From Futiania mangrovi (GTDB lineage Bacteria > Pseudomonadota > Alphaproteobacteria > Futianiales > Futianiaceae), in NCBI RefSeq assembly GCF_024158125.1, contig NZ_JAMZFT010000002.1, positions 868,001-932,000 of the forward strand: a stretch of 64,000 nt of DNA. Direction: 5' to 3'. The notes beneath the pieces are model-generated. The model did no database searches. It was given only the letters and a program-made list of their open reading frames with translations, and was not told the origin of the DNA. Below, in pieces: positions 12,345-60,323 of this stretch. The position numbers were made by a program, and so were the translations under genes. The number at the start of each line of letters is the position of its first letter. Within the stretch, counting starts at the first letter, position 1.

Positions 12345-12376
12345 GTGCAGGTGGTCCTTCGTGCTTGTGCTGGTCT

Positions 12377-20180: not shown

Positions 20181-21343
20181 GCCTTGCCCGCGGGCTTCGG
20201 CGGGCGCTGCGAAAAGCGGCGGTCGAACACGTGCTCGGCGATGCGGTTCAGCATCATCTCGTTCGATCCGCCCGCGATCATCCAGCCGCGCGTCTTGCGG
20301 AAGCAGTATTCGACGAGCGAATCCCGGCAATAGCCGCCGCCGCCCATGCACTGCAGCGCCTCGTTGGCGATGTCGAAGCCCGCGCGGTTGCAGAACGCCT
20401 TGGCGATGGAGGTGTCCTCCGCCGACGGCAGGCCCCGGTCGGCCCTGGTCGCGGCGCGGTAGAGCAGCAACTGCCCGGCGTCGAGCCGGATCTTCATTTC
20501 CGCGAACTTCCACTGGATGCCCTGGAAGTCGGCGAGCGGGCGGCCGAACTGCTCCCGGTGCAGGACGTGCTCGCGCGCCGCCTCGTAGGCATAGCGGCCG
20601 AGCGCCAGCGAGCGCGCCGTGTTGCCGATCCGCTCGGCGTTGAAGCCCTGGATCTGCTTCTTGAAGCCGCCTGGGCCCAGCAGCACGTCCTCCGGCGGCA
20701 CGTACACATTGTCGAAATAGAGCGCGCACCACGCCTCGTCGTTCATGTAGTGGACGGGCTTTCCTTGCGTGAACCCCTCCGCGCCGCGCTCGACCATGAC
20801 CGAGCCGATGCCGCCCACGCCCGGCCCGAAGCGGCAGTAGATCAGGAAGATGTCGGCCTCCGCCGAGTGGCTGGTGAACACCTTTCCGCCATTGAGGCGG
20901 TAGCCCTTGCCGTCGGGCGTCGCGGTCGTCGCGAGGTCGGTGACGGCAGAGCCCGCGCCCGGCTCCGACATGCCGAGGCCGATCAGCGTCTCGCCCTTCA
21001 GAAGCGGCTTCAGGTAACGCTCTTTCTGGTCGGGCGTCGCATATTCGGCGAGCGTGCGGATCGCGCCGAAATTGCCGGCCTGGATCACGTCGGCGCTGCG
21101 CGGGCAGGCGGCGGCCACCTCCTCGATGGCGATGACCGCGTCCATCAGCGTGCCGCCCTGACCTCCGTCCGCCTCCGGGATCGTGATGCCCATGAGGCCG
21201 GCGTCCGCCAGCAGGCGCGCCACGTCGAAGTCGAAGCGGTCGGAATGTGCACGCGCCAGCGCCCCCTCCGGCAGGTGGCGCCGGGCAAGCCCGCGCACGG
21301 CGTCGCGGAAGATCTGCTGTTCTTCGCTGAGTTCGAAATCCAT
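20177..21343 (-). CDS. Acyl-CoA dehydrogenase (isovaleryl-CoA dehydrogenase-like catalytic pattern)
   Basis: A 388-residue acyl-CoA dehydrogenase. It carries GLGMSEPGAGSAVTDL in the flavin domain, REQFGRPLADFQGIQ, and CMGGGGYCRD near the C-terminus. The usual C-terminal catalytic position is glycine (IAGGSNEMM), while NAERIGNTARSLALG places a glutamate where isovaleryl-CoA dehydrogenase has its base. This suggests a branched acyl substrate. It is the first gene of a two-gene minus-strand operon with the ADP-forming CoA ligase (4-base overlap). The upstream gap to the GntR gene holds a pair of exact repeats that may be regulatory. Confidence 0.9.
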   Translation of the reverse strand: MDFELSEEQQIFRDAVRGLARRHLPEGALARAHSDRFDFDVARLLADAGLMGITIPEADGGQGGTLMDAVIAIEEVAAACPRSADVIQAGNFGAIRTLAEYATPDQKERYLKPLLKGETLIGLGMSEPGAGSAVTDLATTATPDGKGYRLNGGKVFTSHSAEADIFLIYCRFGPGVGGIGSVMVERGAEGFTQGKPVHYMNDEAWCALYFDNVYVPPEDVLLGPGGFKKQIQGFNAERIGNTARSLALGRYAYEAAREHVLHREQFGRPLADFQGIQWKFAEMKIRLDAGQLLLYRAATRADRGLPSAEDTSIAKAFCNRAGFDIANEALQCMGGGGYCRDSLVEYCFRKTRGWMIAGGSNEMMLNRIAEHVFDRRFSQRPPKPAGKA

Positions 21344-21397
21344 CGGGTGTCCTGCCGGGTGTCCTGACGGCCCGTGGCGGGCCTCACTTGTTTTCTC

Positions 21398-21433
21398 GAC
21401 AATACCTTTCAGGACGTATGCAAGACAATACCT
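21398..21433. repeat. Two exact 10-bp direct repeats upstream of an acyl-CoA dehydrogenase gene
   Basis: GACAATACCT occurs at 21398-21407 and again at 21424-21433, start-to-start distance 26 bases, in the 115-bp AT-richer gap between the dehydrogenase start (minus) and the GntR gene. Tandem copies at a promoter suggest a regulator site; the adjacent GntR protein is the obvious candidate, but this is inference. Confidence 0.45.
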
Positions 21434-21458
21434 CTTTCGGCGCCTGCGGGGGCGGGGC

Positions 21459-22271
21459 TCAGAGGCTGCCGCCCGACGGCGTCCATAGCGCGGGCTCCTC
21501 CGTCTCGGACGGACCCATGTCGAGGTTGATCTCGAACTCGTAGCGGTCCGGGCGATAGAGGGCGCGGATATACTCCACGGGCCGGCCGTTCTGGTCGCGC
21601 ACGGTCCGGATGATGCAGAGCAGCGGCGCGCCGACCTCCACCCCGATCAGCGGCGCGACGGTCGCGTCCGCGGCCCGCGCGGTCACCCGCTGGTAGGCGC
21701 GGGCGACCTTCACGCCCGCACGGTCGAGCAATTGCAGGAAGGGCATCTTCTGCATGTCCGCGCGCGTGTAGGTGCGGCCCACGTCCTCCGGTACCCAGGT
21801 CACGGCATGGGAGAACGGCTCGCCCTTGTGCGAGCGCAGGCGCACCGCCTTCTGCACGGTCGCGCCGCGCGGCAGATCCAGCGCCGCGGCGATGTGGTCG
21901 GGGGCGGCCATGTACTGGAACTCCAGCACCTTGACCTTTGTGCGCAGGCCCATGGCGAGCAGGTTCTCCATCAGCCCGCGCAGGCCCGCGTCGACCGCGC
22001 GCGAGGCGCGTTGCGGGCGGGCGAACGTGCCGCGCCCGCGCTGGCGCACGACGAGACCCTCGGCCTCCAGCCGCTCCAGCGTCTTGCGGATGGTCACGCG
22101 CGAGACGCCGAAACTCTGGCCAAGCTCCACCTCGCTCGGCATCGGTGTGTCCTCGGGGAAGAAGCCCTCGAGGATCTGCTCGCGCAGCACCATGTAGATG
22201 CGGTGATAGAGCGGCAGCGGCGAACTGCCCGCGTCCTGCCCGGCCTGCGTGGCTGGCTGCGACCCCTTCAC
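21459..22271 (-). CDS. GntR family transcriptional regulator, UTRA (HutC-type)
   Basis: A 270-residue regulator. The winged-helix domain (about residues 20-85) has LYHRIYMVLREQILEGFF, MPSEVELGQSFGVSRVTIRK and LVVRQRGRGTFA. The rest is a UTRA ligand-binding domain, starting around LMENLLAMGLRTKVKVLEF and ending VEYIRALYRPDRYEFEI. The GTG at 22269-22271 with AGGGGAG 7-8 bases upstream is preferred; an ATG at 22332-22334 would add 21 low-complexity residues. It sits between the dehydrogenase/CoA-ligase operon and the divergent RraA-Tct genes, so it may control either. UTRA regulators are usually repressors released by a pathway metabolite. Confidence 0.88.
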   Translation of the reverse strand: MKGSQPATQAGQDAGSSPLPLYHRIYMVLREQILEGFFPEDTPMPSEVELGQSFGVSRVTIRKTLERLEAEGLVVRQRGRGTFARPQRASRAVDAGLRGLMENLLAMGLRTKVKVLEFQYMAAPDHIAAALDLPRGATVQKAVRLRSHKGEPFSHAVTWVPEDVGRTYTRADMQKMPFLQLLDRAGVKVARAYQRVTARAADATVAPLIGVEVGAPLLCIIRTVRDQNGRPVEYIRALYRPDRYEFEINLDMGPSETEEPALWTPSGGSL

Positions 22272-22421
22272 GGCCCGTCTCCCCTCACCCTGTCCCCCTT
22301 CGCACGTCCGCCCGCCGCCGCGTTCCGCCGGCATCCGGCGCGCCCGGTGCCATGTTTCCGCGGTCCGCGCAAGCGGTCAGCGCTGCGGCAGGCGTCCGCC
22401 CGGACGCTTCAAAAAGTATTA

Positions 22422-22450
22422 TTGACACAACAATCGCTCCGCGCGAACAT
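22422..22450 (+). promoter_or_regulatory. Candidate promoter of the RraA-Tct operon
   Basis: TTGACA at 22422-22427 is a perfect -35 hexamer in an AT-rich patch (AAAAAGTATTATTGACACAA). After a 17-base spacer, GAACAT at 22445-22450 is a poor -10 (3 of 6). It lies about 40 bases before the likely TTG start of the RraA-type gene and in the divergent gap with the GntR gene. Confidence 0.4.
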
Positions 22451-22490
22451 CCTTTTCAAGCACGCGGAACGATGCGGAGGGGATGAGGCG

Positions 22491-23186
22491 TTGGCGGCGA
22501 ACTGCACCTTCACAAGGGACATCGTCCGCCCCGATCCGGCGGCTGTCGCGGCGGCGGCGGACCTTCCGGTCGCCACCGTCTCCGACATTCTCGGCTGGGA
22601 CTGCCTGATGGCTCCCCGGCTGCGCCCCATCGACCGCGCAATGCGGCTCTGTGGCCCGGCGGTGACGCTGAAGCTCGGCGTCGGCGACAATCTCATGATG
22701 CACAAGGCGATGCAGGTGGCGGAGGCGGGCGACATCCTCGTGGTCGACCAGGAGGCGAGCACCAGCCACGCGCCCTTCGGCGGGATCATGGCGACGGCGG
22801 CGCAGGCAAAAGGGCTCGGCGGTCTCGTCATCGACGGGTCGGTTCGCGACGCGACCGAGATCCGCGAGATGGGGTTCCCCGTGTTCTGCGTCGGGCTGAC
22901 GCCGCGGCAGGCGGGCAAGAACGGTCCGGGTCACGTGAACGTGCCCGTCTCCTGCGGCGGGGCGCGGGTCGAACCCGGCGACCTGGTGATCGGGGACGAG
23001 GACGGCATCTGCGTCATCCCGCGCGCTCGCGTCGCGGACGTGACGGCGGCGGTGCGCGAACGCATTGCGGCGGAGGAGCGGCGCAAGGCGGCCATCGCGC
23101 GCGGCGAACTTTATCCCGGCTGGCTGGACGACCGGCTGGCCGAGGTCGGTGCGGTCGAAACCGGCGGAAGACCGGAGACGGCCTGA
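22491..23186 (+). CDS. RraA family protein (HMG/CHA aldolase-like)
   Basis: A 231-residue protein of the RraA/4-hydroxy-4-methyl-2-oxoglutarate aldolase fold. Features are VATVSDIL near the N-terminus, HAPFGGIMATAAQAKG, the Arg-Asp pair in IDGSVRDATEIREMG that the aldolases use for metal and pyruvate binding, and VIGDEDGICVIPR. No ATG lies in a sensible place; TTG 22491-22493 with GGAGGGGATGAGG upstream is the best start. Aldolase members cleave 4-hydroxy-2-oxo acids to pyruvate; RraA itself inhibits RNase E. Position next to a TctCBA importer favours the catabolic role. It starts the plus-strand run opposite the GntR gene. Confidence 0.85.
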   Translation: MAANCTFTRDIVRPDPAAVAAAADLPVATVSDILGWDCLMAPRLRPIDRAMRLCGPAVTLKLGVGDNLMMHKAMQVAEAGDILVVDQEASTSHAPFGGIMATAAQAKGLGGLVIDGSVRDATEIREMGFPVFCVGLTPRQAGKNGPGHVNVPVSCGGARVEPGDLVIGDEDGICVIPRARVADVTAAVRERIAAEERRKAAIARGELYPGWLDDRLAEVGAVETGGRPETA

Positions 23187-23223
23187 AACAACAGGGCGAA
23201 GAAGATTCCCGGAGGAGGAGAAG

Positions 23224-24186
23224 ATGGGAGTGCGGAAACCGATCGGGGCGCTGCTTGCCGGCGCCGCGATGATGCTGACGGCAGCCGGTGCGCTGGCCGA
23301 GTATCCGGACAAGACGATCACCATGGTGGTGCCATATGCCCCGGGCGGCGGCGGCGACACCTTCACCCGCGCCATCGCCGAGGAGGCGAAGGAGATCTTC
23401 GGGGTCAACATCCTCGTGGAGAACCGCACGGGCGCGGGCGCGACCATCGGCGTGGGCTCGGTCGCACGCTCGGCGCCGGACGGCTACACGATCGGCTTCG
23501 TCTCGACGAGCCCCGTGGTGCTTGCGCCGAATTTCTCGAACGTGCCCTACGATCCGTCGAAGGATCTCACCTACCTCGCGCAGTTTATCGTCAGCCCGCA
23601 CCCGTTCATGGTGCGCGCGGATTCCCAGTGGCAGACCTTCGACGAGGTGCTGGCCTGGGCCAAGGCGAACCCCGGCAAGCTGCGCTGGTCGACGGCGGGT
23701 CCGCGCGGCGCGCCGCATATCGCGACCGAGGCGGCGTTCCGCAAGGAAGGCGTCGAGGCGGTCTTCGTGCCGATGAAGGGGTCGTCGGAGGTGCTGGCGG
23801 GCCTGCTCGGCGACACGCTCGACGCGGGCGTGATCTCCGACTACGCCGTGCCGATGCAGGCCGGACAGATCCGCGTCCTCGCCGAGATCGGCCCGCGCCC
23901 GATCCCGGGTCTCGACGTGCCGACGTACAAGGACAAGGGCTATCCGATGACGCCGACGATCTTCTTCGGCCTCGCCGGGCCGGCAGGTCTGCCGGACGCG
24001 GTGATCGCCAAGTGGAACGACGCGATGGCGAAGATCGTGGAGACCGAGCGCTTCAAGGAGACGGCCAAGCGCCTCGGCGGCCAGATTTCCTTCCTGCCGC
24101 ATGCCGAGTTCCAGCCGACGGTGCTGGACGACATCGCGTCGACGCGAAAGGCGCTGGTCGACCTGGGCATGCTCGACAAGAAATAG
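23224..24186 (+). CDS. tctC: Tripartite tricarboxylate transporter substrate-binding protein
   Basis: A 320-residue periplasmic receptor of the Bug/TctC family. Residues 1-25 form a signal peptide ending ALAEYPDK, and the mature N-terminus YPDKTITMVVPYAPGGGGDTFTR holds the ligand-loop hallmark. The ATG at 23224 has GGAGGAGGAG upstream. TctB and TctA follow, completing the system; a strong hairpin with a T tract separates this gene from tctB. Ligands of the family include citrate, other carboxylates and some aromatics, so the actual ligand is open. It follows the RraA gene by 37 bases. Confidence 0.93.
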   Translation: MGVRKPIGALLAGAAMMLTAAGALAEYPDKTITMVVPYAPGGGGDTFTRAIAEEAKEIFGVNILVENRTGAGATIGVGSVARSAPDGYTIGFVSTSPVVLAPNFSNVPYDPSKDLTYLAQFIVSPHPFMVRADSQWQTFDEVLAWAKANPGKLRWSTAGPRGAPHIATEAAFRKEGVEAVFVPMKGSSEVLAGLLGDTLDAGVISDYAVPMQAGQIRVLAEIGPRPIPGLDVPTYKDKGYPMTPTIFFGLAGPAGLPDAVIAKWNDAMAKIVETERFKETAKRLGGQISFLPHAEFQPTVLDDIASTRKALVDLGMLDKK

Positions 24187-24240
24187 GCTGACGCGGGGGG
24201 CGCGCGCCCTTGCGCGCCCCGCCGGCACAGACGGAGACGA

Positions 24241-24270
24241 GGGCGGCGGTGTCCGCACTGCCGCCCTTTT
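24241..24270 (+). terminator. Rho-independent terminator/attenuator between tctC and tctB
   Basis: An 11-bp stem with one G-T wobble (24241-24251 with 24256-24266), a TCCG tetraloop, then TTTT. It lies 54 bases after the tctC stop and 52 before the tctB start. A second GC-only hairpin without a T tract lies at 24197-24220. Partial termination here would give more receptor than membrane subunits. Confidence 0.75.
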
Positions 24271-24322
24271 CCGTCCGGACCGTGTAACACCTGGTGCGCC
24301 CGGCAGGGGCGAGGGGAGACCG

Positions 24323-24862
24323 ATGAAGGCGCTCAATGGCGAGGCGATGCTCGCAATGGCCGTTCTGGCGGCCTGCGCGCTGTTCAGCTTCGTGATCGTG
24401 CCCGCGGGCGTCGACACCTCCTATGTCGACCCGCGCGACCTCGGCCCCCGGTTCATCCTCGACATCGCGAGTGCCGGCATGGCGCTGGCCGCGGGCGCGG
24501 CGCTGGTGCGGATCGGGCTCGGCAAGGCCGCTTCGGGCGAGGCCGCGCCGTCGCAGGCGGAGGCGCCCGTTCCGGAGCCGCGCGCAGAAGCCCATGCGGA
24601 CGAACGCCGCGGCAGGCGCCGCGTGCTGGTGGTTCTGGCCGCGCTCGGCATCTATTCCTTCGTGTTGATCGACCTGATCGGTTTCTACGTGGCGAGCGTG
24701 GTGACGCTCGGCGCGGTGACCTGGCTCCTGGGGGAGCGGCGGGTGGCGCTCGTCGCGCTCTATGCGCTCGTGCTGACCGCGTCCATCTACGTGCTGTTCG
24801 AGATGGTGCTGCAGAGCCGCCTGCCCAAGGGCTGGATCCTGCAGTCGCTGGGCGTGTCATGA
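24323..24862 (+). CDS. tctB: Tripartite tricarboxylate transporter small membrane subunit
   Basis: A 179-residue protein with about four hydrophobic segments. The first two are near residues 7-25 and 45-65; then comes a charged, Ala/Pro/Glu-rich loop (about 70-95) and two more helices. This is the TctB architecture, whose sequence is poorly conserved. The ATG at 24323 has GAGGGGAG 7 bases upstream. TctA starts 16 bases downstream. It forms the membrane complex with TctA and is driven by an ion gradient. Identification rests on topology and position more than on motifs. Confidence 0.88.
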   Translation: MKALNGEAMLAMAVLAACALFSFVIVPAGVDTSYVDPRDLGPRFILDIASAGMALAAGAALVRIGLGKAASGEAAPSQAEAPVPEPRAEAHADERRGRRRVLVVLAALGIYSFVLIDLIGFYVASVVTLGAVTWLLGERRVALVALYALVLTASIYVLFEMVLQSRLPKGWILQSLGVS

Positions 24863-24878
24863 GCGGGGGGCGTCGGAC

Positions 24879-26414
24879 ATGCTGAGCCAGATTCTCGAGG
24901 GGATGTCGCTCGCGCTGCATGTCGACGCGCTGCTCGGCATCGTGATCGGCGTCGCGGTGGGGCAGGTGCTGGGCGCGATCCCCGGCCTGACCGCCAGCAT
25001 GGCGGTGGCGCTGCTCATTCCCTTCACCTTCTATTTCGACCCCTGGGTCGGCATCCCGATGATGCTCGGCATGTTCAAGGGCTCGCTGTTCGGCTCCAGC
25101 ATGGCGGCGATCCTGATCCGCACGCCGGGCGCGCCGGCAGCCGCGGCCACCGTGCTCGACGGCGGGCCGCTCGCCGACCAGGGCAAGGGCGGAAAGGCGA
25201 TGCAGACCGCGCTCGCGGCGTCGGTGTTCGGGGACACCTTCTCCGACATCTGCCTGATCCTCGCCTCCGGTGTGCTGGCGGCCATCGCTATCCGCTTCGG
25301 TCCGGGCGAGTACGTGCTGCTCATCGCCTTCTCGCTGCTGACGCTTGCCTCGCTGTCGGGCAAGTCGGCGTGGAAGGCGACGGTGGCGACGCTGCTGGGC
25401 CTCGTGTTCGGCGCCATCGGCCTCGACCCGATGCTGGGGACGGAGCGGCTGACCTTCGGACAGCTCGACCTGTTCGACGGGCTGGGGCTCATCCCGGTCC
25501 TGATCGGTGTGCTCGCGGTCTCGGAAGTGTTCATGCAGATGGGCAAGCCGCTGACACACCTCGCATCCAAGACGGTGGAGTTCTCGGCGAAGCGGGAGGA
25601 CAACCGCCTGAGCTGGCTGGAGTTCCGCGGGCTTCTGCCGTGCCTGACGCGCTCCTCCGTGATCGGCACGATCGTGGGCGCGCTGCCCGGCCTCGGCGCG
25701 ACCATCGCGGCCTTCCTCGCCTACAACGACGCGCGCAACATCTCCAGGACGCCGGAGAAGTTCGGCAAGGGCGCGCTCGAAGGCGTCGCCGCGCCCGAGG
25801 CCGCGAACAATGCGGTTTCAGGCTCGAACATGATCCCGCTTCTGGCGTTCGGTATTCCGGGCGACGTGGCCGCCGCGCTCATCCTCGGGGCCTTCCTGAT
25901 CCAGGGCATCACGCCGGGCCCGGTGGCATTCCAGGCGAACCCGGTTCCGCTGTACGCGATCTTCACGGCGATGCTGCTGGCGAACGCGGTCAATTTCGGG
26001 ATCGGCAAGGCGTTCATCCCGCTCGCCAAGCGGATGGTCGCGGTGCCCAAGCGGCTGCTCTTCCCGGGCGTGCTGATCATCGCGTCGGCGGGGGCCTACG
26101 CGATCCGCGGCTCGCTGTTCGACGTGCAGCTGACGCTCGTCTCCGGCGCGGTGGGCTATGCCATGCTGCGGCTCGGCTTCCCGCCCGTGCCGATGCTGAT
26201 CGGCTTCATCCTGACGCCGATCCTGGAGAAGTCGCTGCGCCAGACGGTGCTGGTCGTGTCGGCGGCCGACGGCTGGCTCGACTATGTGCTGAGCCGGCCG
26301 GTCCTGATGGTGCTGCTCGTGCTGTTCGCGGCGGTGAGCGTGATGATGCTGCGCAAGCGGATGCAGTTCGTGCGGCAGAGCACGGGGGCGGGCGACCTGG
26401 CGTCGGACGAATAG
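24879..26414 (+). CDS. tctA: Tripartite tricarboxylate transporter large permease
   Basis: A 511-residue inner-membrane permease with about twelve hydrophobic segments. The N-terminal GVAVGQVLGAIPGLTASMAVALLIPFTF and the middle IVGALPGLGATIAAFLAY are the duplicated TctA signatures. The loop with RTPGAPAAAATVLDGGPLADQGKGG and the motif EAANNAVSGSNMIPLLAFGIPGD are also family hallmarks. Length is normal. It completes the tctCBA set on the plus strand and is followed 66 bases later by the aminotransferase gene. Confidence 0.94.
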   Translation: MLSQILEGMSLALHVDALLGIVIGVAVGQVLGAIPGLTASMAVALLIPFTFYFDPWVGIPMMLGMFKGSLFGSSMAAILIRTPGAPAAAATVLDGGPLADQGKGGKAMQTALAASVFGDTFSDICLILASGVLAAIAIRFGPGEYVLLIAFSLLTLASLSGKSAWKATVATLLGLVFGAIGLDPMLGTERLTFGQLDLFDGLGLIPVLIGVLAVSEVFMQMGKPLTHLASKTVEFSAKREDNRLSWLEFRGLLPCLTRSSVIGTIVGALPGLGATIAAFLAYNDARNISRTPEKFGKGALEGVAAPEAANNAVSGSNMIPLLAFGIPGDVAAALILGAFLIQGITPGPVAFQANPVPLYAIFTAMLLANAVNFGIGKAFIPLAKRMVAVPKRLLFPGVLIIASAGAYAIRGSLFDVQLTLVSGAVGYAMLRLGFPPVPMLIGFILTPILEKSLRQTVLVVSAADGWLDYVLSRPVLMVLLVLFAAVSVMMLRKRMQFVRQSTGAGDLASDE

Positions 26415-26435
26415 GCAGGCGGGCCTGCATGTTTC

Positions 26436-26463
26436 CGGGGCGCGCGACGGGCGGCCCCGCTTT
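26436..26463 (+). terminator. Weak hairpin after tctA
   Basis: CGGGGC (26436-26441) pairs with GCCCCG (26454-26459) around a 12-base loop, followed by CTTT. The stem is short and the T run minimal, so this may only attenuate read-through into the aminotransferase gene. Confidence 0.3.
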
Positions 26464-26480
26464 CGAGGTGTGACGAGACG

Positions 26481-27404
26481 ATGGATACGAGCAACGCTCC
26501 CTACATGATCCTCAACGGCAAGGTGGTGCCCTTCGCCGAGGCGCGCATCCACTGCCTGGCCCCCGCCGTGACCTATGGCGCGAACGTGTTCGAGGGCCTG
26601 CGCGCCTACTGGAACGCGGACGACGGGCAGCTTTACGTGTTCCGCGTGGAGGAGCATCTCGACCGCCTGTTCTATTCCGCGAAGGTCATGCGGATCGAGC
26701 ATCCCTGGACGCGGGAGGATTTCCGCAACGGCCTGCTGGAGCTTCTGCGCGTCAACGAGGTGAAGGAGAGCGTCCACATGCGCATCCACCTCTATGTCGA
26801 CGAGGACGGCTTCATGACCGCGACCTCGCCCGGCGGCATGTTCATCTCCTGCGTGTTCCGGCCGACCTCGAAGATCGCAATGCAGGGCTGCCGCGCGCAG
26901 GTCAGTTCCTGGACGCGGATCTCGGACAATGCGAGCCCGCCGCGGGTGAAGAGCGCGGCCAACTACTTCAACGGGCGGCTGGCCTCGCTGCAGGCCAAGA
27001 GCGACGGCTACGACACCGCGATCCTGCTGTCGGAAACGGGCCGTGTGACGGAGGGGCCGGGCGCGTGCCTGTTCATCGTCCGCGACGGCCGCATCGTCAC
27101 GCCCGACGTCTCCAACGACATTCTCGAGAGCATCACGCGCGCGACCCTGATCGAGGGCGCGAAGGAATGGCTGGGCCTCGACGTCGAACAGCGCCCCATC
27201 GCGCGGACCGAGCTTTACGCCGCCGACGAGGTCTTCTTCTGCGGCACCGGCCAGGAGGTCCTGCCCGTCGTGGAGGTCGACCGCTTCCCCGTGGGCACCG
27301 GCACGGTCGGCCCGATCACGGCGGAGCTTCAGCGCCGCTATTTCGGCGTCGCGCGCGGCACCGACACGGCGCATCCCGACTGGCGCACGCCCGTCTATGT
27401 CTGA
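26481..27404 (+). CDS. ilvE: Class IV aminotransferase, branched-chain amino acid aminotransferase type
   Basis: A 307-residue pyridoxal-phosphate enzyme of fold type IV. The PLP lysine is Lys157 in PPRVKSAANYFNG, and further motifs are YGANVFEGLRAYW, ETGRVTEGPGACLFIV and EVFFCGTGQEVLPV. These fit bacterial IlvE rather than D-alanine aminotransferase or aminodeoxychorismate lyase. It transfers the amino group of a branched or related amino acid to 2-oxoglutarate, giving a 2-oxo acid. It stands between tctA and the HyuB gene (51 bases away), so a catabolic paralogue is more likely than the biosynthetic IlvE. That role is inferred from context. Confidence 0.88.
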   Translation: MDTSNAPYMILNGKVVPFAEARIHCLAPAVTYGANVFEGLRAYWNADDGQLYVFRVEEHLDRLFYSAKVMRIEHPWTREDFRNGLLELLRVNEVKESVHMRIHLYVDEDGFMTATSPGGMFISCVFRPTSKIAMQGCRAQVSSWTRISDNASPPRVKSAANYFNGRLASLQAKSDGYDTAILLSETGRVTEGPGACLFIVRDGRIVTPDVSNDILESITRATLIEGAKEWLGLDVEQRPIARTELYAADEVFFCGTGQEVLPVVEVDRFPVGTGTVGPITAELQRRYFGVARGTDTAHPDWRTPVYV

Positions 27405-27455
27405 GCGCGGCCAAAGCAGGCCCGCCGCGCACGCCCTACTGACCCGGAGACCGAC

Positions 27456-29102
27456 ATGAGCAAGACACTGAGCCCGATCCAGCTCGGGATCATCTGGCAG
27501 CGCCTCACCGGCCTGATGGACGAGGTGGCGCAGACCTTCGTGCGCACCTCCTTCTCGGTCGTGGTACGGGAGAACTGGGACCTCGCCTGCTCGCTGATGG
27601 ACGCCGACGGGCGGCAGTTCGCGCAGTCCTCGCGCTCCATCCCCTCCTTCATCGGCACCATGCCGCGCACGCTGAAGGGGATGCTGGAGCGCTACCCGCG
27701 CGAGGCGCTGGAGCCTGGCGACGTGCTGATCAGCAACGACCCGTGGCTGGGCACCGGGCACCTCAACGACATCACCATGGTGCAGCCAATCTTCCGGGAC
27801 CGCACCCTGGTGGCCTTCGTCGGCTCGACCTTCCACACGGTCGACATCGGCGGCGCGCCGTCGCCGACCGCCAAGGACGCCTTCGAGGAAGGGCTCTGCA
27901 TACCGGTCGCGAAGATCAAGCGGCGCGGCGAGGAGAACGAGGACGTCATCGCCTTCCTGCGCGAGAACCTGCGCGAGCCCGACGAGACGCTGGGCGACAT
28001 CCGCGCGCAGTTCGCCTCCTACACGCTGGCGGCCAACCGGCTGCTGACGCTGATGCAGGAGGAGGGGATCGAGGACCTGAAGGACGTCACCGACGAGATC
28101 CTCGCCCGCTCAGAACACTCCATGCGCGAGGCGATCGCCGCGATCCCGGACGGGGAGTTCACCGACACCGTCACCTCCGACGGCTTCGACGAGGAACTGA
28201 CGATCCGCTGCACGGTGCGCAAGCAGGGCACCGAGATCGGCGTCGACTACACCGGTACCTCGCCGCAGGTGCAATGGCCGGTCAATTCGGTGATGAACTT
28301 CACCTTCGCCTACAGCGCCTATGCGCTGAAGTGCGCGCTCGACCCGACCGCGCCGAACAACGACGGCTGCTTCCGGCCCATCGACATCACCGCGCCCGAG
28401 GGCTGCCTGGTCAATCCGCGCCGCCCGGCGCCGGTCTGGGCGCGGCACCTGTCGGGCCACTACATGCCCTTCGTGATCTACCGCGCGCTCTCGCAGATCG
28501 TGCCGGAGAAAGTGGCCGCCGAAAGCGGCTCGCCCCTCTGGAACGTCTATTTCAAGGGCGTGAACCGCAACGGGCGCAAGTTCGTGAAGATGTTCTTCAT
28601 GAGCGGCGGCTACGGGGCGCGGCCGAGCTCGGACGGTCCCTCCACGCTCAGCTTCCCGAGCAATGTGGCCAACACGCCGGTCGAGCAGTTCGAGAACGCC
28701 GTCCCCCTCGTCATGACGGAGAAGGCGCTGATCCCCGACAGCGGCGGCGCGGGCCGGTTCCGCGGCGGCCTCGGCCAGCGGCTGACGTTCCGCTCGGTCT
28801 CTCCCGAACCCCTCAGCTTCGTGATCCGGCACGAGCGGGTGAAGAACCCGCCGGGCGGCCTGCTGGGCGGGCTCGCGGGGGCTGCGGGCGTCGACCTCGT
28901 GAACGGGGAGAAGATCCCCGCCAAGACCACGCAGACGCTGAAAACCGGCGACACGGTGACGTTCGAGACGCCGGGCGGCGGTGGCCTCTACCCGCCGGAG
29001 ACGCGCGATCCCGCGGCCCTTGCCCGCGACATCGAGGACGGACTCGTCAGCGCCGAGGCGGCGCGTTCCATCTATGGCGCCGCGGCGCCCGCAGGCGAAT
29101 GA
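27456..29102 (+). CDS. hyuB: Hydantoinase B/oxoprolinase family protein
   Basis: A 548-residue subunit of an ATP-dependent amidohydrolase of the oxoprolinase/N-methylhydantoinase type. It starts LSPIQLGIIWQRLTGLMDEVA and carries EPGDVLISNDPWLGTGHLNDIT, FVGSTFHTVDIGG and a C-terminal SGGAGRFRGGLGQ with FETPGGGGLYPP. All are HyuB hallmarks. HyuA follows 21 bases downstream. Family pairs open 5-oxoproline, hydantoins or related lactams; some relatives are acetone or acetophenone carboxylases, which normally have further subunits not seen here. Substrate unknown. Confidence 0.92.
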   Translation: MSKTLSPIQLGIIWQRLTGLMDEVAQTFVRTSFSVVVRENWDLACSLMDADGRQFAQSSRSIPSFIGTMPRTLKGMLERYPREALEPGDVLISNDPWLGTGHLNDITMVQPIFRDRTLVAFVGSTFHTVDIGGAPSPTAKDAFEEGLCIPVAKIKRRGEENEDVIAFLRENLREPDETLGDIRAQFASYTLAANRLLTLMQEEGIEDLKDVTDEILARSEHSMREAIAAIPDGEFTDTVTSDGFDEELTIRCTVRKQGTEIGVDYTGTSPQVQWPVNSVMNFTFAYSAYALKCALDPTAPNNDGCFRPIDITAPEGCLVNPRRPAPVWARHLSGHYMPFVIYRALSQIVPEKVAAESGSPLWNVYFKGVNRNGRKFVKMFFMSGGYGARPSSDGPSTLSFPSNVANTPVEQFENAVPLVMTEKALIPDSGGAGRFRGGLGQRLTFRSVSPEPLSFVIRHERVKNPPGGLLGGLAGAAGVDLVNGEKIPAKTTQTLKTGDTVTFETPGGGGLYPPETRDPAALARDIEDGLVSAEAARSIYGAAAPAGE

Positions 29103-29123
29103 AGAGGCGGAAGGCATAAAGGC

Positions 29124-31226
29124 ATGACCAGCGCACACATGACCATCGGTGTCGATATCGGCGGCACCTTCACCGACCTCGTTATGCTGGACGAGGCGAC
29201 GGGTCGCCTTTTCAACGAGAAGGTGCTGACCACGCCCGACGATCCCTCGCGCGGCGTCCTGCAGGGCATTTCCCAGATCCTCGACAAGAACGGCGTCGCA
29301 CCCGCGCAGGTGATGCGGGTGATCCACGGCACGACGCTCGTCGCCAACGCGCTGATCGAGCGCAAGGGCGTGGCGACCGCGCTCGTTACCACGCAGGGCT
29401 TCCGCGACATCATCGAGATCGGGCGGGAGTGGCGCTACGACACCTACGACCTGTTCATCGGCGTCGTGGACCCGCTGGTCAGGCGGTCCCGCCGCTTCGA
29501 GGTGGCCGAGCGCGTGGGCCCCGACGGCGCGGTTCTCTCGCCGCTGACCGATGCCGCGCTCGAGGCGCTGGTGGCGGACCTGCGCGACGTGCCCGTGGAG
29601 GCCGTCGCCGTCTCGCTGCTGCATTCCTTCAAGAACGGGGAGCACGAGCGGCGCGTGCGCGACCGCCTGGCGGCGGCCTTTCCCGACCGCACCATCTGCA
29701 TCTCCTCGGAGGTGATGCCCGAGATCGGGGAGTACGAACGCACCTCCACCACCATCGCCAACGCCTATGTGCAGCCGATCTTCCGCCGCTACATCCAGCG
29801 CCTGTCGGAAGGGCTGAAGGCCATGGGGATCGGGCGCGACCTGTTCCTGATGCAGTCCGACGGCGGCACGGTTCACCAGGCGACCGCGATGGAGTTCCCG
29901 ATCCGTCTCGTCCAGTCCGGACCGGCGGGCGGCGTGCAGGCGACGACGCTGATCGGCAAGCTGGCGGGCGAGTCCGACGTTCTGTGCTTCGACATGGGCG
30001 GCACCACGGCCAAGGCGTGCCTCATCGAGGACGGCGAGCCGACGCGCACCACCGATTTCGAGGTGGCGCGCATGTTCCGCTTCAAGAAGGGCTCGGGCAT
30101 CCCGCTCAAGGTGCCGGTCGTCGACATGATCGAGATCGGCGCGGGCGGCGGCTCCATCGCGCGCGTCAACCGCATGGGGCTGATCCAGGTCGGCCCGGAC
30201 AGTTCCAGCGCGGTGCCGGGTCCCGCCTGCTACGGCCAGGGCGGGGAGGACGCGACCGTCACCGATGCCGACCTGCTGCTGGGCTACCTCGACGCCGGGA
30301 ACTTTCTCGGCGGGGACATGGCGCTCGACGTGGACGCCTCCGCCTCCGCCATCAAGGCGAAGATCGCCGATCCGCTCGGGCTTTCCGTCACCGAGGCGGC
30401 GTGGGGCATCCACGAGACGGTGAACGAGAACATGGCGCAGGCCACCGGCATCCATGCGCTGGAGAAGGGCAAGCGCGCCGACCGCTTCGTCATGGTGCCC
30501 ATCGGCGGCGCAGGGCCGGTCCATGCCTGCCAGGTCGCGCGCAAGCTGCGGATGCGCAGCGTGATCTGCCCGCTCGGCGCGGGCGTCGCCTCCGCCTTCG
30601 GCTTCCTCGCCTCGCCCATGTCGTTCGAGTTCGTGCAGGCCTCCGTCGCCGCGCTCGACGATCTGGACGCCGCGACCCTCGCCGACATGTTCGGCGGGCT
30701 GGAGGCGCGGGGCCGCGAGCTTCTCTCCAGCGCGGGCGTCGACCCGGCGTCCTTCGGCGTGCGCATCCTCGCCTCCATGCGCTACCAGGGGCAGGGGTAC
30801 GAGGTCGACGTGCCGATGCCGGAGGACGCGCTCGACGGCGGTCTCCAGCCGAAGCTCAAGGCGGCGTTCGAGAAGGCCTATGGCGACCTCTACGGCCGGA
30901 TCGAGGCGGGCATGCCGGTCGAGGTCGTCTCCTGGCGGCTGATCGTCGCCTCGCCCTATCCCGACCTGAAGCCGCAGGCCGCGGACGTGCAGGGCGGTGA
31001 CATCGCGGACGCGCTCAAGGGCACGCGCCGGATCTACGACGGGGAGGCGCGCGACTTCGTGGAGGCGCCGGTCTACGACCGCTACAAGCTGACGGAGGGC
31101 ATGACAGCGGCCGGTCCCGCCATCGTGGAGGAGCGGGAATCGACCCTCGTCGTGCCCGCGCACAGCACGATCCGCATCGACCGCTACCGCAACCTCATCG
31201 TCGACTTCGCCTATCCGGACGCCTGA
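29124..31226 (+). CDS. hyuA: Hydantoinase A/oxoprolinase family protein
   Basis: A 700-residue partner of HyuB. It belongs to the actin-like ATPase fold: the phosphate motif is TIGVDIGGTFTDLVMLDE at the N-terminus, with IHGTTLVANALIERKG, LVTTQGFRDIIEIGR, FDMGGTTAKACLIEDG and GPACYGQGG further on. The C-terminal part has RYQGQGYEVDVPMP. It phosphorylates the substrate amide so that the ring can be opened together with HyuB. It lies in the same operon, 21 bases after HyuB and 31 bases before the ThDP enzyme. Length is normal for hydantoinase A. Confidence 0.93.
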   Translation: MTSAHMTIGVDIGGTFTDLVMLDEATGRLFNEKVLTTPDDPSRGVLQGISQILDKNGVAPAQVMRVIHGTTLVANALIERKGVATALVTTQGFRDIIEIGREWRYDTYDLFIGVVDPLVRRSRRFEVAERVGPDGAVLSPLTDAALEALVADLRDVPVEAVAVSLLHSFKNGEHERRVRDRLAAAFPDRTICISSEVMPEIGEYERTSTTIANAYVQPIFRRYIQRLSEGLKAMGIGRDLFLMQSDGGTVHQATAMEFPIRLVQSGPAGGVQATTLIGKLAGESDVLCFDMGGTTAKACLIEDGEPTRTTDFEVARMFRFKKGSGIPLKVPVVDMIEIGAGGGSIARVNRMGLIQVGPDSSSAVPGPACYGQGGEDATVTDADLLLGYLDAGNFLGGDMALDVDASASAIKAKIADPLGLSVTEAAWGIHETVNENMAQATGIHALEKGKRADRFVMVPIGGAGPVHACQVARKLRMRSVICPLGAGVASAFGFLASPMSFEFVQASVAALDDLDAATLADMFGGLEARGRELLSSAGVDPASFGVRILASMRYQGQGYEVDVPMPEDALDGGLQPKLKAAFEKAYGDLYGRIEAGMPVEVVSWRLIVASPYPDLKPQAADVQGGDIADALKGTRRIYDGEARDFVEAPVYDRYKLTEGMTAAGPAIVEERESTLVVPAHSTIRIDRYRNLIVDFAYPDA

Positions 31227-31257
31227 GCCGGGGCGCACGCAAGGGACCAGCAGCCGC

Positions 31258-32874
31258 ATGAGCGCACAGCACACCGTCGCCGAAGCCTTTGCCGACGCCC
31301 TCGTCCGGCATTGCGTCACCCGCATGTTCGGCGTGCCGGGCGGGGGATCGAGCCTCGACGTGATCGCGGCGGCCGCCGCGCGCGGCATCCCCTTCGTTCT
31401 GGCGCGGACGGAGAACGGCGCGGTGATGATGGCGGGCGCGACAGCGGAGCTTTCCGGCACGCCGGGCGTCGCGCTGACCACCAAGGGACCGGGCCTCGCC
31501 AACGGCGCGAACGGCGCGGCCTACGCCATGCTCGACCGTGCGCCCGTGCTGATGGTGACGGACGGGTTCACGCCGAAGCAACTCGCCTACATCACGCACC
31601 AGGTGTTCGACCAGAAGGCGATGCTCGCCCCCGTGATGAAGGGGCATGGGCGGCTCGAAGGCGACGACGCGGCCCAGGAGATCGAGACGCTGATACAGAC
31701 CGCGCTCGCGCCCCGCCGCGGCCCCGTGCATGTCGAGCTGACCGGCCCTGCCGCGCGGCGCGAGGTGGCGCCCTTCGCAGGCGGCGCGCGGGCGGAAGCG
31801 GGCATCGCGGGCGACGTGGATGCGCTTCGCGCCCGCATCGCGGCGGCGAAGCGGCCGGTGGTCGTCGCGGGGCTCGAAGCCTGCCGGCCCGAGGCGGCGG
31901 ACGCCCTGCGCCGGCTGTGCGCGGGCCTCGGCTGCGCCGGGCTCGTCACCTACAAGGCCAAGGGGACCATAGCCGACGACGACCCGGCCTATGCGGGCAT
32001 CTTCACCGGCGGTGCGGCGGAAGGCCCGTGCGTTTCCTCCGCCGACCTGATCGTGCTCTACGGCATGGACCCGGTGGAGCTGATCCTGCAGCCCTGGCCC
32101 TACGACATTCCGGTAGTGGAGATGTCGACCGCGCCGCACCCGGTCCATTATTGCGCGCGCGAGGCCTCGGTCTACGGGCCGCTCGACGCCGTCGTGGGGG
32201 CGCTGGGGCCGCTTCAGCCCGCGCCCGGCTGGCGCGAGGGGGAAGCACACGCTTTCCGCGACACGCAACGCGCGGCGCTCGCCTATCCCTCGACCGGCAA
32301 CCTGCTGAGCCCGCAGGAGGTGGTCGAACGCGCCGCCGCCCACGCCGCCAGGCGGCCCGGCCCTCTGCCGCGCATCGCGGTCGATGCCGGCGCGCACATG
32401 TTCTCCGCCACCATGTTCTGGCCGTGCCGGGAGCCGGGGGACATCCTCATCTCGAACGGGCTCGCGACCATGGCCTACGCGCTGCCCGCAGGCATCGCCG
32501 CGGCGCTGCACGATCCGGCGCGCGGCGCGGTCGTGTTCACGGGCGACGGTGGCCTGCTGATGTGCCTCGGCGAGCTTGCGACCGCCGCGCAGTACGGCGC
32601 GAACGTGACAGTCGTCGTGTTCAACGACGCCTCGCTCTCGCTGATCGACGTGAAGCAGCAGAGCCGCAAGCTCGCGCCCGACGGCGTGCGGTGGGAGCGG
32701 CCGGACTTCGCCGGAACCGCGCGTGGCCTGGGCTTCGAGGCATGGCGGGCCGACAGCGCCGAGACGCTGGAGACTGCGCTTGCGGCTGCGATGGCGCATG
32801 ACGGCCCCGCACTGGTCGATGCGTGGATCGACCCGCGCGGCTATGGCGCGCAGCTCAAGGCCTCGCGCGGCTGA
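31258..32874 (+). CDS. Thiamine diphosphate-dependent enzyme, acetolactate synthase/oxo-acid decarboxylase-like
   Basis: A 538-residue ThDP enzyme. The activating glutamate is Glu52 in RTENGAVMMAGATAELSG, and the cofactor motif runs from GDGGLLMCLGELATAA to VVVFNDASLSLID. The N-terminal domain reads MFGVPGGGSSLDVI, as in sulfopyruvate decarboxylase-like and acetolactate synthase-like groups. It is distinct from the other ThDP enzyme in the window (10689-12344). As last gene of the RraA-Tct-IlvE-Hyu run, it may decarboxylate the 2-oxo acid formed by the aminotransferase. It ends 19 bases before a convergent lipoprotein gene. Confidence 0.85.
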   Translation: MSAQHTVAEAFADALVRHCVTRMFGVPGGGSSLDVIAAAAARGIPFVLARTENGAVMMAGATAELSGTPGVALTTKGPGLANGANGAAYAMLDRAPVLMVTDGFTPKQLAYITHQVFDQKAMLAPVMKGHGRLEGDDAAQEIETLIQTALAPRRGPVHVELTGPAARREVAPFAGGARAEAGIAGDVDALRARIAAAKRPVVVAGLEACRPEAADALRRLCAGLGCAGLVTYKAKGTIADDDPAYAGIFTGGAAEGPCVSSADLIVLYGMDPVELILQPWPYDIPVVEMSTAPHPVHYCAREASVYGPLDAVVGALGPLQPAPGWREGEAHAFRDTQRAALAYPSTGNLLSPQEVVERAAAHAARRPGPLPRIAVDAGAHMFSATMFWPCREPGDILISNGLATMAYALPAGIAAALHDPARGAVVFTGDGGLLMCLGELATAAQYGANVTVVVFNDASLSLIDVKQQSRKLAPDGVRWERPDFAGTARGLGFEAWRADSAETLETALAAAMAHDGPALVDAWIDPRGYGAQLKASRG

Positions 32875-32893: not shown

Positions 32894-33466
32894 TCAGTCC
32901 TCGCGCGGCGGCTCCAGCGGCTGGCCCTTCGACCAGCGCACGACGGAGCCCGCGGTTTCCTTGCCCAGTTCCTGCACGAGGTCTTCCATGTCGAGGAAGT
33001 CGGCCCCGCCGATCCCCGCGCCGCCGGAATAGGCTTTCCAGCTCTCGAACTTCGCGAGCGAGGTACCGTCCGTGCCTCCGATCTCGAACGCGCCGCGCGC
33101 CTTGGCCCGGCCAGCCCCGAAGCCGATGATCCAGCGCGCCGCCCGGTTGCCGCGGTCGACCTCGGTCAGGCGCCCCGTCAGGAGGACGGTTTGCGCGGGC
33201 AGCGTCTCGGGCGCGGGGTCGTAGACCTGGGCAAAGGCGTTCGACTCCCGCAATTCGGCCACCAGGCCCGCGCGCAGATAGGGCAGGTACAGCGCCCACA
33301 GCTCGTTGTCGGCGGTCAGTTCGCCGATCGCAACGCCCGTCGCCGGCTCCTGCGGCTTGGACACGTACTCTGGCGTTACGGTGGTCGTCGTGCAGCCGGC
33401 AAGAACTAGGCCCGCCAGCATCACCAGCACGGCCGGCAGGCCGCGCATAGCGCGCATCGTCAGCAT
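32894..33466 (-). CDS. DUF4410-like lipoprotein
   Basis: A 190-residue secreted lipoprotein of unknown function. The signal peptide ends in a lipobox, LVLAGC, with the lipidated cysteine near residue 25, followed by a threonine run. The middle segment TGRLTEVDRGNRAARWIIGFGAGRAKARGAFEI is a glycine-rich stretch typical of the DUF4410 family. It is probably anchored to the inner leaflet of the outer membrane, since Thr rather than Asp follows the cysteine. It stands alone, convergent with the ThDP gene and divergent from the sodium channel gene. Confidence 0.8.
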   Translation of the reverse strand: MLTMRAMRGLPAVLVMLAGLVLAGCTTTTVTPEYVSKPQEPATGVAIGELTADNELWALYLPYLRAGLVAELRESNAFAQVYDPAPETLPAQTVLLTGRLTEVDRGNRAARWIIGFGAGRAKARGAFEIGGTDGTSLAKFESWKAYSGGAGIGGADFLDMEDLVQELGKETAGSVVRWSKGQPLEPPRED

Positions 33467-33641
33467 CTGGGCACCCCCCGGTGATTCTGTTGTTCTTCTT
33501 TGCAGGCTACGTCACGCCTTCGAAATCAGGAATATGAAAACGGCGGCCCGGCGGCGCCTCTCGCGGACCTTGACCGCGGGCCGCGGCATTCCCTTATTTG
33601 GCCGTTATCGGCTTGGGTCATCCGCCCTTCAGGGAGCTTCC

Positions 33642-34445
33642 ATGGACATTATGCGCCGCATCGTGGAATCGGAGCGGTTCCAGACCGCGATCATCGCGGT
33701 CATCGTGCTGAACGCGATCGTGCTGGGGCTCGAGACCTGGCCCGCGGCCATGACGCAGGCGGGCGGCGTGCTGGTCGTGCTCGACCGCATCGCCATCGCG
33801 ATCTTCGTGGTGGAGATTGCGATGAAGCTCGCGGTCTACCGGTTGTCCTTCTTCCGCTCGGCGTGGAACGTGTTCGACCTCGCCATCGTGTCGATCACCT
33901 TCGTGCCCGCGGGCGAGGGAGTGTCGGTGCTGCGCGCGTTACGCATCCTGCGGGCGCTCAGGCTCATCTCGGTCGTCCCGTCCATGCGGCGCGTGGTGCA
34001 GGCGCTCTTGCGCGCGATCCCGGGCATGGGGTCGGTCGTGACGCTGCTCGCGCTCGTCTTCTATGTCGCCGCCGTGATGGCGACCAAGCTGTTCGGCGCA
34101 GCGTTCCCGGACTGGTTCGGCAGCATGGGCGCTTCGTTCTACTCGCTCTTCCAGATCATGACGCTGGAAAGCTGGTCCATGGGGATCGTGCGGCCCGTCA
34201 TGGAGGTCTATCCCTTCGCGTGGATCTTCTTCGTCGTCTTCATCCTGCTCACGACATTCGCGGTGCTGAACCTGTTCATCGCGATCATCGTCGACTCCAT
34301 GAGCCAGGAGCACGCGGCGGAGGAGGCCGCGACCCGCGGCGCGCTCGGCAGCGAGCATCAGCAGATCATGGCGGAACTGACCGCGCTGCGGGCGGAGGTC
34401 GCAGCACTCGCGCGCGGTCCGGGCGCGGGCCCGCGCGGAGATTGA
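33642..34445 (+). CDS. Voltage-gated sodium channel, NaChBac type
   Basis: A 267-residue single-domain ion channel with six membrane segments, functioning as a tetramer. S4 carries four arginines at every third position (R98, R101, R104, R107 in VLRALRILRALR). The pore loop contains TLESWSM at 174-180, the selectivity filter sequence of NaChBac. S6 (about 194-218) is followed by a short cytoplasmic helix with a heptad-like tail at AELTALRAEVAAL, as in the C-terminal four-helix bundle of the family. The ATG at 33642 has AGGGAG upstream. Such channels are linked to motility and pH or salt response in alkaliphiles; the role here is unknown. Confidence 0.92.
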   Translation: MDIMRRIVESERFQTAIIAVIVLNAIVLGLETWPAAMTQAGGVLVVLDRIAIAIFVVEIAMKLAVYRLSFFRSAWNVFDLAIVSITFVPAGEGVSVLRALRILRALRLISVVPSMRRVVQALLRAIPGMGSVVTLLALVFYVAAVMATKLFGAAFPDWFGSMGASFYSLFQIMTLESWSMGIVRPVMEVYPFAWIFFVVFILLTTFAVLNLFIAIIVDSMSQEHAAEEAATRGALGSEHQQIMAELTALRAEVAALARGPGAGPRGD

Positions 34446-35648: not shown

Positions 35649-36518
35649 GTGGAGACACCCGCCGCGCGCCTGCGCACCTTGCTGGAGGAGCCCGTCCTCC
35701 GCCTCATGCCGTGCTGCTTCGATCCGCTGTCCGCGCGGCTGATCCGCGAGGCGGGCTTCCCGCTGTCGCTGATGAGCGGCTTTGCCGTGTCCGGCAGCCG
35801 GCTTGCCATGCCGGACACCGGACTCATCTCCTTCGCCGAGATGGTCGACCAGCTTGGCGCGATCTGCGACGCGGAGCCGGACCTGCTGGTCATCGGCGAC
35901 GGCGACACGGGCTTCGGCAACGCGATGAACGCGCAGCGCACGGTCCGCGCCTATGCAAAGGCCGGGGCCGCCGCCGTGATGATCGAGGACCAGGTCTCGC
36001 CGAAGAAGTGCGGCCACACCAAGGGCAAGCAGGTCGTCTCGCGCAAGGAGGCGCGCATGAAGGTCCGCGCCGCGGTCGACGCCGCGCGCACCGGCCCACA
36101 CGACATCCTCGTCATGGCGCGGACCGACGCGCGTGCGCCGCTGGGCTTCGAGGAGGCGCTCGCCCGCTGCCATGACTTCGTGGAGGAAGGCGCCGACATC
36201 ATCTTCCTCGAGGCGCCGGAAAACGCCGAGGAGATGCGCGCCTTCACCGCCGCCATCGACAGGCCCTGCATGGCCAACATGGTGCGCGGCGGCAAGACGC
36301 CCGTGCCGGCGCCGGCGGAGCTTCAGGCGATGGGCTTCCGGATCGCGGCCTATCCGCTGACGCTGCTGACCGCCAGCATCGCGGCCCAGCGCGCGGCGCT
36401 GAAGGCCATTGCCGACGGCGATGACGCGACCGTGCCGCAGGTCGACTTCGAGACGCTCAAGACGCTCGTCGGCTTCGACGACTACTACGCCGGCGAGGAG
36501 AGATACCGCGCCGACTGA
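35649..36518 (+). CDS. Isocitrate lyase/PEP mutase family lyase
   Basis: A 289-residue (beta/alpha)8-barrel lyase. The metal-binding stretch GDGDTGFGN is at about 83-91 and the catalytic loop KKCGH at 119-123, with Cys121 as the probable general acid/base. This loop is found in isocitrate, 2-methylisocitrate and 2,3-dimethylmalate lyases. It starts with GTG at 35649, with AAGGGAGG about 11 bases upstream. LeuC/LeuD-type genes follow, so it may cleave an alkylated malate or isocitrate analogue to a 2-oxo acid plus an acid. Oxaloacetate decarboxylase-like and PEP mutase members lack the KKCGH cysteine arrangement. Exact substrate is unknown. Confidence 0.88.
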   Translation: METPAARLRTLLEEPVLRLMPCCFDPLSARLIREAGFPLSLMSGFAVSGSRLAMPDTGLISFAEMVDQLGAICDAEPDLLVIGDGDTGFGNAMNAQRTVRAYAKAGAAAVMIEDQVSPKKCGHTKGKQVVSRKEARMKVRAAVDAARTGPHDILVMARTDARAPLGFEEALARCHDFVEEGADIIFLEAPENAEEMRAFTAAIDRPCMANMVRGGKTPVPAPAELQAMGFRIAAYPLTLLTASIAAQRAALKAIADGDDATVPQVDFETLKTLVGFDDYYAGEERYRAD

Positions 36519-36559
36519 GGCGCTGCACCCCGGCGACAAACGGACAGGACAGGCCCGCC

Positions 36560-37987: not shown

Positions 37988-37988
37988 G

Positions 37989-38621: not shown

Positions 38622-38703
38622 AGCAGGCGTCCGGCCAATCACGCGAAGCCTGCCGAGGCCGGGCCTGGCGTCCGGGCGACTGCAGCGAAACACAGGGGAG
38701 GTC

Positions 38704-39684: not shown

Positions 39685-39784
39685 GCCTACCGGGGAGGAC
39701 CTGGCCATTTCCAAGCTCGCCGAGGCGAGTGCCCCGTCCGCGACGCGCGACGCGCCGCGGGCGGCGCACGCCGAACTGACCGGT

Positions 39785-41310: not shown

Positions 41311-41314
41311 GACC

Positions 41315-42052: not shown

Positions 42053-42062
42053 GGGCCTTCCG

Positions 42063-60252: not shown

Positions 60253-60323
60253 TCGCAGGGCCGCGGGCCACCGGGCCAGGGCGATGCAACGACAGGCAAA
60301 AAGGGGGGAGGGATGAACGCGGC

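Follow-up and report, generated by a model that had tools for sequence, protein, structure and literature searches.

A conserved Tct-IlvE-HyuBA-ThDP gene unit in Futiania mangrovi and a candidate catabolic route for an anionic cyclic amide

What does a HyuBA enzyme, a member of a large family that is mostly annotated by guess, degrade when its genes lie among those of a tricarboxylate transporter (Tct), an IlvE-type aminotransferase and a thiamine diphosphate (ThDP) enzyme? The question is raised by a gene cluster at 18042-32874 of a window (the whole stretch of DNA analyzed, 64,000 nucleotides, positions 868,001 to 932,000 of contig NZ_JAMZFT010000002.1) from the 3.39 Mb genome of the alphaproteobacterium Futiania mangrovi. 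By comparing the cluster with related loci in other genomes, and by examining the catalytic residues of its products, we find that the gene set is a real conserved unit whose linkage is far beyond chance. As to its function, we hold with moderate confidence that 18042-32874 is a conserved catabolic unit, in which an anionic cyclic amide would be taken up and passed through HyuBA, IlvE, the ThDP enzyme, oxidation and activation with coenzyme A (CoA), a GntR regulator controlling both arms. With an alpha-aminotransferase, a ThDP enzyme and a CoA arm tied to one HyuBA subfamily, the substrate is narrowed to a few structures that can be purchased or synthesized for testing. The features of the cluster, in window coordinates, are as follows.

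18042-20180, minus strand: acyl-CoA ligase, nucleoside diphosphate (NDP)-forming, acetate--CoA ligase type, 712 amino acids (Pfam CoA_binding_2, Succ_CoA_lig, ATP-grasp_5)
20177-21343, minus strand: acyl-CoA dehydrogenase, 388 amino acids (Pfam Acyl-CoA_dh)
21459-22334, minus strand: GntR/UTRA regulator, HutC type (Pfam GntR, UTRA)
22418-22434, no strand: candidate operator and promoter, from sequence
22491-23186, plus strand: RraA-like protein, putative 4-hydroxy-2-oxo-acid aldolase/oxaloacetate decarboxylase type, accessory (PF03737)
23224-24186, plus strand: TctC, periplasmic solute-binding protein (PF03401)
24323-24862, plus strand: TctB, small membrane subunit (PF07331)
24879-26414, plus strand: TctA, large membrane subunit (PF01970, 443 bits)
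26481-27404, plus strand: IlvE-type class IV aminotransferase (PF01063, Aminotran_4)
27456-29102, plus strand: HyuB, metal-site subunit of a putative ATP-dependent cyclic amide hydrolase (PF02538, Hydantoinase_B)
29124-31226, plus strand: HyuA, its ATP-site subunit (PF05378, PF01968, PF19278; Hydantoinase_A with N- and C-terminal domains)
31258-32874, plus strand: ThDP enzyme with acetolactate synthase fold, probably a 2-oxo-acid decarboxylase (PF02775/02776/00205, TPP_enzyme N/M/C)

An earlier note, made from the sequence alone, had described eight plus-strand genes opposite a GntR gene, and all nine lie where and in the order it placed them, with strong Pfam matches. The likely true starts are a TTG at 22491 for RraA, an ATG at 23224 for TctC (which then has a signal peptide) and an ATG at 24323 for TctB. 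The gaps between the plus-strand genes (37, 136, 16, 66, 51, 21 and 31 bp, in gene order) are operon-like; the 136 bp gap between TctC and TctB holds a weak terminator-like hairpin, a kind of match that is no commoner in the region than in its shuffles. Downstream of the ThDP gene lies a DUF4410 gene on the opposite strand. The note's idea of one dissimilation unit at 22491-32874 stands, but its borders were too narrow: the cluster extends past GntR on the minus strand (18042-21343) to the acyl-CoA dehydrogenase gene, 115 bp away, and the ligase gene that overlaps its end. These two are no chance neighbors, because close relatives of both recur in related loci: over its full length the dehydrogenase shares 68-73% identity with its counterpart in 12 of them (plus one fragment), and the ligase 41-55% with ligases in seven.

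The search for the same neighborhood that the note had called for used four aligned HyuB proteins as query against 84,980 genomes and returned 78 loci from Alpha-, Beta- and Gammaproteobacteria, 41 of which are well covered (5 kb or more flanking HyuB on each side). Carriers include Limnohabitans, Ramlibacter, Variovorax, Alcaligenaceae, Woeseiaceae and other Gammaproteobacteria, as well as SAR116, Rhodospirillaceae, Thalassobaculaceae, Jannaschia, Salipiger and Pelagibius. Among the well-covered loci HyuA is present in 41, an IlvE-type gene in 40, the ThDP gene in 38, TctC in 31 and TctA in 20. These counts are not independent: the four query proteins all came from linked loci, and the 78 loci contain several near duplicates. 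Further genes are less frequent: aldehyde dehydrogenase (17 of the 41 and 19 of all 78), acyl-CoA dehydrogenase (10 and 13), HpcH/HpaI aldolase (10 and 12), a D-glutamate cyclase-family gene (9 and 10) and RraA (6 and 7), with class II aldolase in 9 and acyl-CoA ligase in 8 of the 78. The order is TctCBA-IlvE-HyuBA-ThDP in many Alphaproteobacteria, HyuBA-aldehyde dehydrogenase-ThDP-RraA-TctC-IlvE in Comamonadaceae, HyuBA-ThDP-TctC-IlvE in Alcaligenaceae and HyuBA-ThDP-dehydrogenase-TctCBA in Gammaproteobacteria; that the parts stay constant while their orders vary argues for a shared function.

The source genome itself provides a neighborhood control: it has eight Hydantoinase_B copies, and none of the seven HyuB paralogues outside the cluster has an IlvE or ThDP gene nearby. 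Elsewhere, where the two subunits are paired, HyuA precedes HyuB, whereas in the cluster HyuB comes first. HyuA, HyuB, IlvE and the ThDP enzyme are inherited together: over 50 complete loci and the window, their pairwise distances correlate with r = 0.87-0.97. Phylogenetic profiles, with HyuB of the subfamily in 5 of 385 sampled genomes of the class, are too sparse to add much. Two loci (L074 and L172) are exceptions to the linkage, carrying two tandem HyuBA pairs of the subfamily beside TctCBA, without IlvE or ThDP.

What the linked enzymes may do can be read in part from their residues and family scores. IlvE scores 273 bits with TIGR01122, above the cut-off of 246, its pyridoxal phosphate lysine K157 is invariant in four sequences, and its closest solved structures are 6h65 and 6gkr. 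In the ThDP enzyme the ThDP glutamate E52 and the GDG...N motif (G429-D430-G431, N456) are invariant in 15 sequences. One might suppose that these two enzymes serve branched-chain amino acid synthesis and stand beside HyuBA and Tct incidentally, as the IlvE score and the acetolactate synthase fold would allow; we consider this highly improbable, for the ThDP enzyme lies far below every acetolactate synthase equivalog cut-off in NCBIfam (best 244 against 509 bits), no ilvC, ilvD or ilvN is found among the scanned neighbors, and the ThDP gene stays linked in 38 of 41 loci despite the varied gene orders. In a tree with 20 unlinked enzymes the linked ThDP copies fall on one side with one unlinked enzyme nested among them (2 changes, against 17.6 when shuffled). 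Glyoxylate carboligase, an enzyme known to lack the ThDP glutamate, was not retained as an assignment, since E52 does not vary. The ThDP enzyme is probably a 2-oxo-acid decarboxylase.

The metal ligands of HyuB (D42, H102, D105 and H127) are invariant in 51 sequences and align to D41, H99, D102 and H124 of CapB, the metal-site subunit of caprolactamase. HyuA has the ASKHA ATP-site motifs DxGGTxTD, DMGGT and GxxPGP, and its D11, K33, D290 and G366 are likewise invariant in 51 sequences. Five further invariant residues of HyuB (S64, H331, P360, W362 and R458) match the lining of the hydrophobic pocket in caprolactamase, as mapped by a pairwise alignment of low identity; S64, H331 and R458 would make the pocket polar where that of CapB is hydrophobic. 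Together with HyuA K297, which stands at the position of CapA D302, these pocket residues suggest an anionic substrate. Neither subunit reaches the NCBIfam equivalogs for CapA and CapB, with scores of 518 and 214 bits where 1000 are required. K297 also raises the question of whether HyuBA is not a hydrolase at all but a ketone carboxylase, since the alpha' subunit of acetophenone carboxylase has a lysine there (Lys281), unlike caprolactamase with its Asp302. Known carboxylases, however, have a small gamma subunit, and no gene for one is present in the window operon or was recognized among the recurrent neighbors, where the small proteins beside HyuBA are mostly TctB-like; moreover, the B-then-A gene order is that of capBA, and the same lysine occurs in one paralogue of no assigned function. 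A carboxylase thus appears very unlikely.

The best solved relative of HyuBA by sequence is N-methylhydantoinase (7hk5), a single fused chain, which would fit a hydantoin-cleaving enzyme whose product is an N-carbamoyl amino acid, with the later genes using the amino acid. No carbamoylase, however, was found among the clustered and scanned neighbors, of which many small clusters carry no identification, and we judge hydantoin cleavage decidedly unlikely. The cyclic amide or lactam substrate that the earlier note had proposed is plausible for HyuBA as a predicted ATP-dependent cyclic amide hydrolase, because the protein shares its metal and ATP residues with the ATP-dependent lactamases and because a gene of another lactam enzyme family, that of D-glutamate cyclase, occurs in 10 of the 78 loci. 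In Rhodobacteria (L120 3182-4887 and similar loci) this gene (PF07286, NF003969), paired with an HpcH/HpaI aldolase gene, lies divergent to TctC. With the bacterial 5-oxoprolinase OplAB and N-methylhydantoinase the enzyme shares its two subunits or domains, the ATP motifs and the Asp-His-Asp-His metal site, but the gene neighborhood differs; of the substrates that the note had named, 5-oxoproline is unlikely, because use of its product, glutamate, needs none of the later genes.

The closest parallel for the whole unit is the caprolactam pathway of Pseudomonas jessenii, in which CapBA opens the lactam with ATP, followed by an omega-aminotransferase and a CoA transferase (PMC6061476, PMC8453981). 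Both clusters have a two-subunit ATP-dependent lactam-opening enzyme (a putative one here), an aminotransferase, CoA activation and an acyl-CoA dehydrogenase; aldehyde dehydrogenase in many sister loci, and a beta-oxidation set and IclR regulator in Rhodobacteria, extend the likeness. The present cluster differs in its class IV alpha-aminotransferase and ThDP enzyme in place of the omega-aminotransferase, its Tct importer, and its NDP-forming ligase in place of the CoA transferase. The exchange of the omega-aminotransferase for an alpha-aminotransferase and a ThDP enzyme could be explained by one extra carboxylate to be removed.

The indoleacetate (iaa) pathway acts on CoA-bound indole intermediates and is not known to have a class IV aminotransferase or a ThDP enzyme, and by this description we set it apart. 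It resembles the cluster in joining a HyuAB-type lactamase and an acyl-CoA dehydrogenase in one pathway (IaaCE and IaaF, as named in PMC8453981, PMC5214803 and PMC8360864).

The genes of related loci also point to the lower part of the route. The Rhodobacteria operon runs TctCBA-IlvE-HyuBA-acyl-CoA dehydrogenase-3-hydroxyacyl-CoA dehydrogenase-aldehyde dehydrogenase-3-oxoadipyl-CoA thiolase-enoyl-CoA hydratase, its thiolase scoring above the 3-oxoadipyl-CoA thiolase cut-off; the source genome encodes, outside the cluster, a thiolase that shares 64% identity with that of the cluster type. On an Acinetobacter plasmid the dehydrogenase-ligase pair adjoins 3-hydroxyacyl-CoA dehydrogenase, pcaF and dcaP, as in adipate (dca-type) degradation, but the plasmid region shown lists no HyuBA, IlvE or ThDP gene; on other plasmids the pair occurs with succinate-semialdehyde dehydrogenase or Tct genes. 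A residue of the acyl-CoA dehydrogenase, Arg/Lys82, was considered as a match for the carboxylate-binding Arg94 of glutaryl-CoA dehydrogenase; it does not align with arginine 84 of 5AF7 and is a lead only.

From gene families and neighborhood we infer the following reactions, their order, their regulation and their substrate. The Tct transporter would import an anionic cyclic amide, that is, a lactam that also bears a carboxylate, and HyuBA would open its ring with ATP to give an amino dicarboxylic acid. The IlvE-type enzyme would pass the alpha-amino group to an acceptor, leaving a 2-oxo dicarboxylic acid, which the ThDP enzyme would decarboxylate to a semialdehyde; up to this point the sequence of uptake, HyuAB, aminotransferase and ThDP enzyme is the plausible one of the earlier note. 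The note had let the pathway end at cleavage of the 2-oxo acid, which appears too early: the two minus-strand enzyme genes next to GntR, and the presence of an aldehyde dehydrogenase in 19 of the related loci, suggest later aldehyde, acid and CoA-ester steps. An aldehyde dehydrogenase (encoded in the cluster elsewhere, in trans here) would turn the semialdehyde into a dicarboxylic acid, the NDP-forming ligase would convert this to its CoA ester, and the acyl-CoA dehydrogenase would begin beta-oxidation, with GntR controlling the plus- and the minus-strand arm. Our best guesses for the substrate are the lactam of 2-aminoadipate (6-oxopipecolate, leading to glutaryl-CoA) and that of 2-aminopimelate (leading to adipyl-CoA): the thiolase type (3-oxoadipyl-CoA) favors a C6 diacid, and the occurrence of 6-oxopipecolate in nature a C5 diacid.

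RraA, which the note had counted as a regular part, belongs to the accessory genes, as it occurs in 7 of 78 loci only. Of the NCBIfam equivalogs for 4-carboxy-4-hydroxy-2-oxoadipate aldolase/oxaloacetate decarboxylase it reaches NF006731 (191 bits against 179) and stays below TIGR02798 (175 against 304.5), and its best PDB match is 3NOJ; a role as RNase E regulator was rejected, the RraA equivalog giving 91 bits against a cut-off of 136. In Comamonadaceae the RraA gene directly follows the ThDP gene, and with RraA, HpcH/HpaI and class II aldolase three unrelated aldolase-like families recur in the loci (7, 12 and 9 of 78). This might mean that an aldolase makes the main carbon-carbon cut: HyuBA and IlvE would yield a 4-hydroxy-2-oxo acid, which RraA (or the aldolases of sister loci) splits into pyruvate and an aldehyde or oxo acid, the ThDP enzyme handling a product. 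Such an aldolase is missing, however, from the majority of the 41 well-covered loci, where the ThDP gene is nearly always present, and HpcH/HpaI lies far below its equivalog cut-off; an aldolase route therefore seems unlikely.

Several points weigh against the decarboxylation and CoA-ester route that we prefer. It leaves the roles of RraA and of the sister-locus HpcH/HpaI and class II aldolases without explanation. The AlphaFold model of the ThDP enzyme (pLDDT, the model's confidence score, 92) matches acetolactate synthases best (Z about 42, many ties), a fold match that gives the broad family only and does not separate decarboxylase from carboligase. The dehydrogenase and the ligase occur in just 13 and 8 of the 78 loci, and the pair is also found without HyuBA; hence it may serve several acids. 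The unit in the window lacks an aldehyde dehydrogenase, and the genome's best candidate shares only 42% identity with the enzyme of the cluster type. For the proposed seven-membered lactam we know of no natural compound, and we found no assay of any enzyme of the cluster.

The combination of Tct, IlvE, HyuBA and ThDP enzyme appears to be new, although every part comes from a known family and the whole would be a variation on ATP-dependent cyclic amide catabolism. The earlier note knew of no described pathway with this set, and none was found in the literature, as covered by open-licence papers. That widespread aquatic Proteobacteria (SAR116, Limnohabitans) have here a new route, taking carboxylated six- or seven-membered lactams by ATP-dependent ring opening, alpha-transamination and ThDP-dependent decarboxylation to dicarboxylyl-CoA, is a tentative and still doubtful proposal. 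Because the unit is widespread in aquatic lineages, both freshwater and marine, its substrate may be an overlooked natural source of nitrogen and carbon; if true, the lactam route points to a source of dissolved organic nitrogen without a described breakdown pathway.

TctA, TctB and TctC are all above their Pfam cut-offs and form a complete tripartite tricarboxylate transporter, and the GntR regulator is below every NCBIfam equivalog cut-off. The candidate operator (ATTATTG-ACA-CAACAAT, 6 of 7 arm positions paired) has a TTGACA box inside, at 22422-22427; by itself it is not significant and serves as a lead only.

The surrounding window is rich in 2-oxo-acid enzymes. Another ThDP enzyme (TPP_enzyme N/M/C) and a fused E1 dehydrogenase lie at 10689-12461 and 60243-62330, and a second pair of NDP-forming acyl-CoA ligase and acyl-CoA dehydrogenase, ligase first, at 48075-51415. 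At 35649-42728 a gene of the PEP mutase/isocitrate lyase family and those of the large and small aconitase subunits are followed by an NMT1-type ABC transporter, a set that appears to form a catabolic unit of its own, similar to those for methylcitrate or dimethylmalate. Just downstream of the cluster, at 33306-34445, lies a gene for an Ion_trans domain protein (ion channel type); in locus L160, a 61% relative of this protein and a relative of the cluster's dehydrogenase-ligase pair are no more than 10 kb apart.

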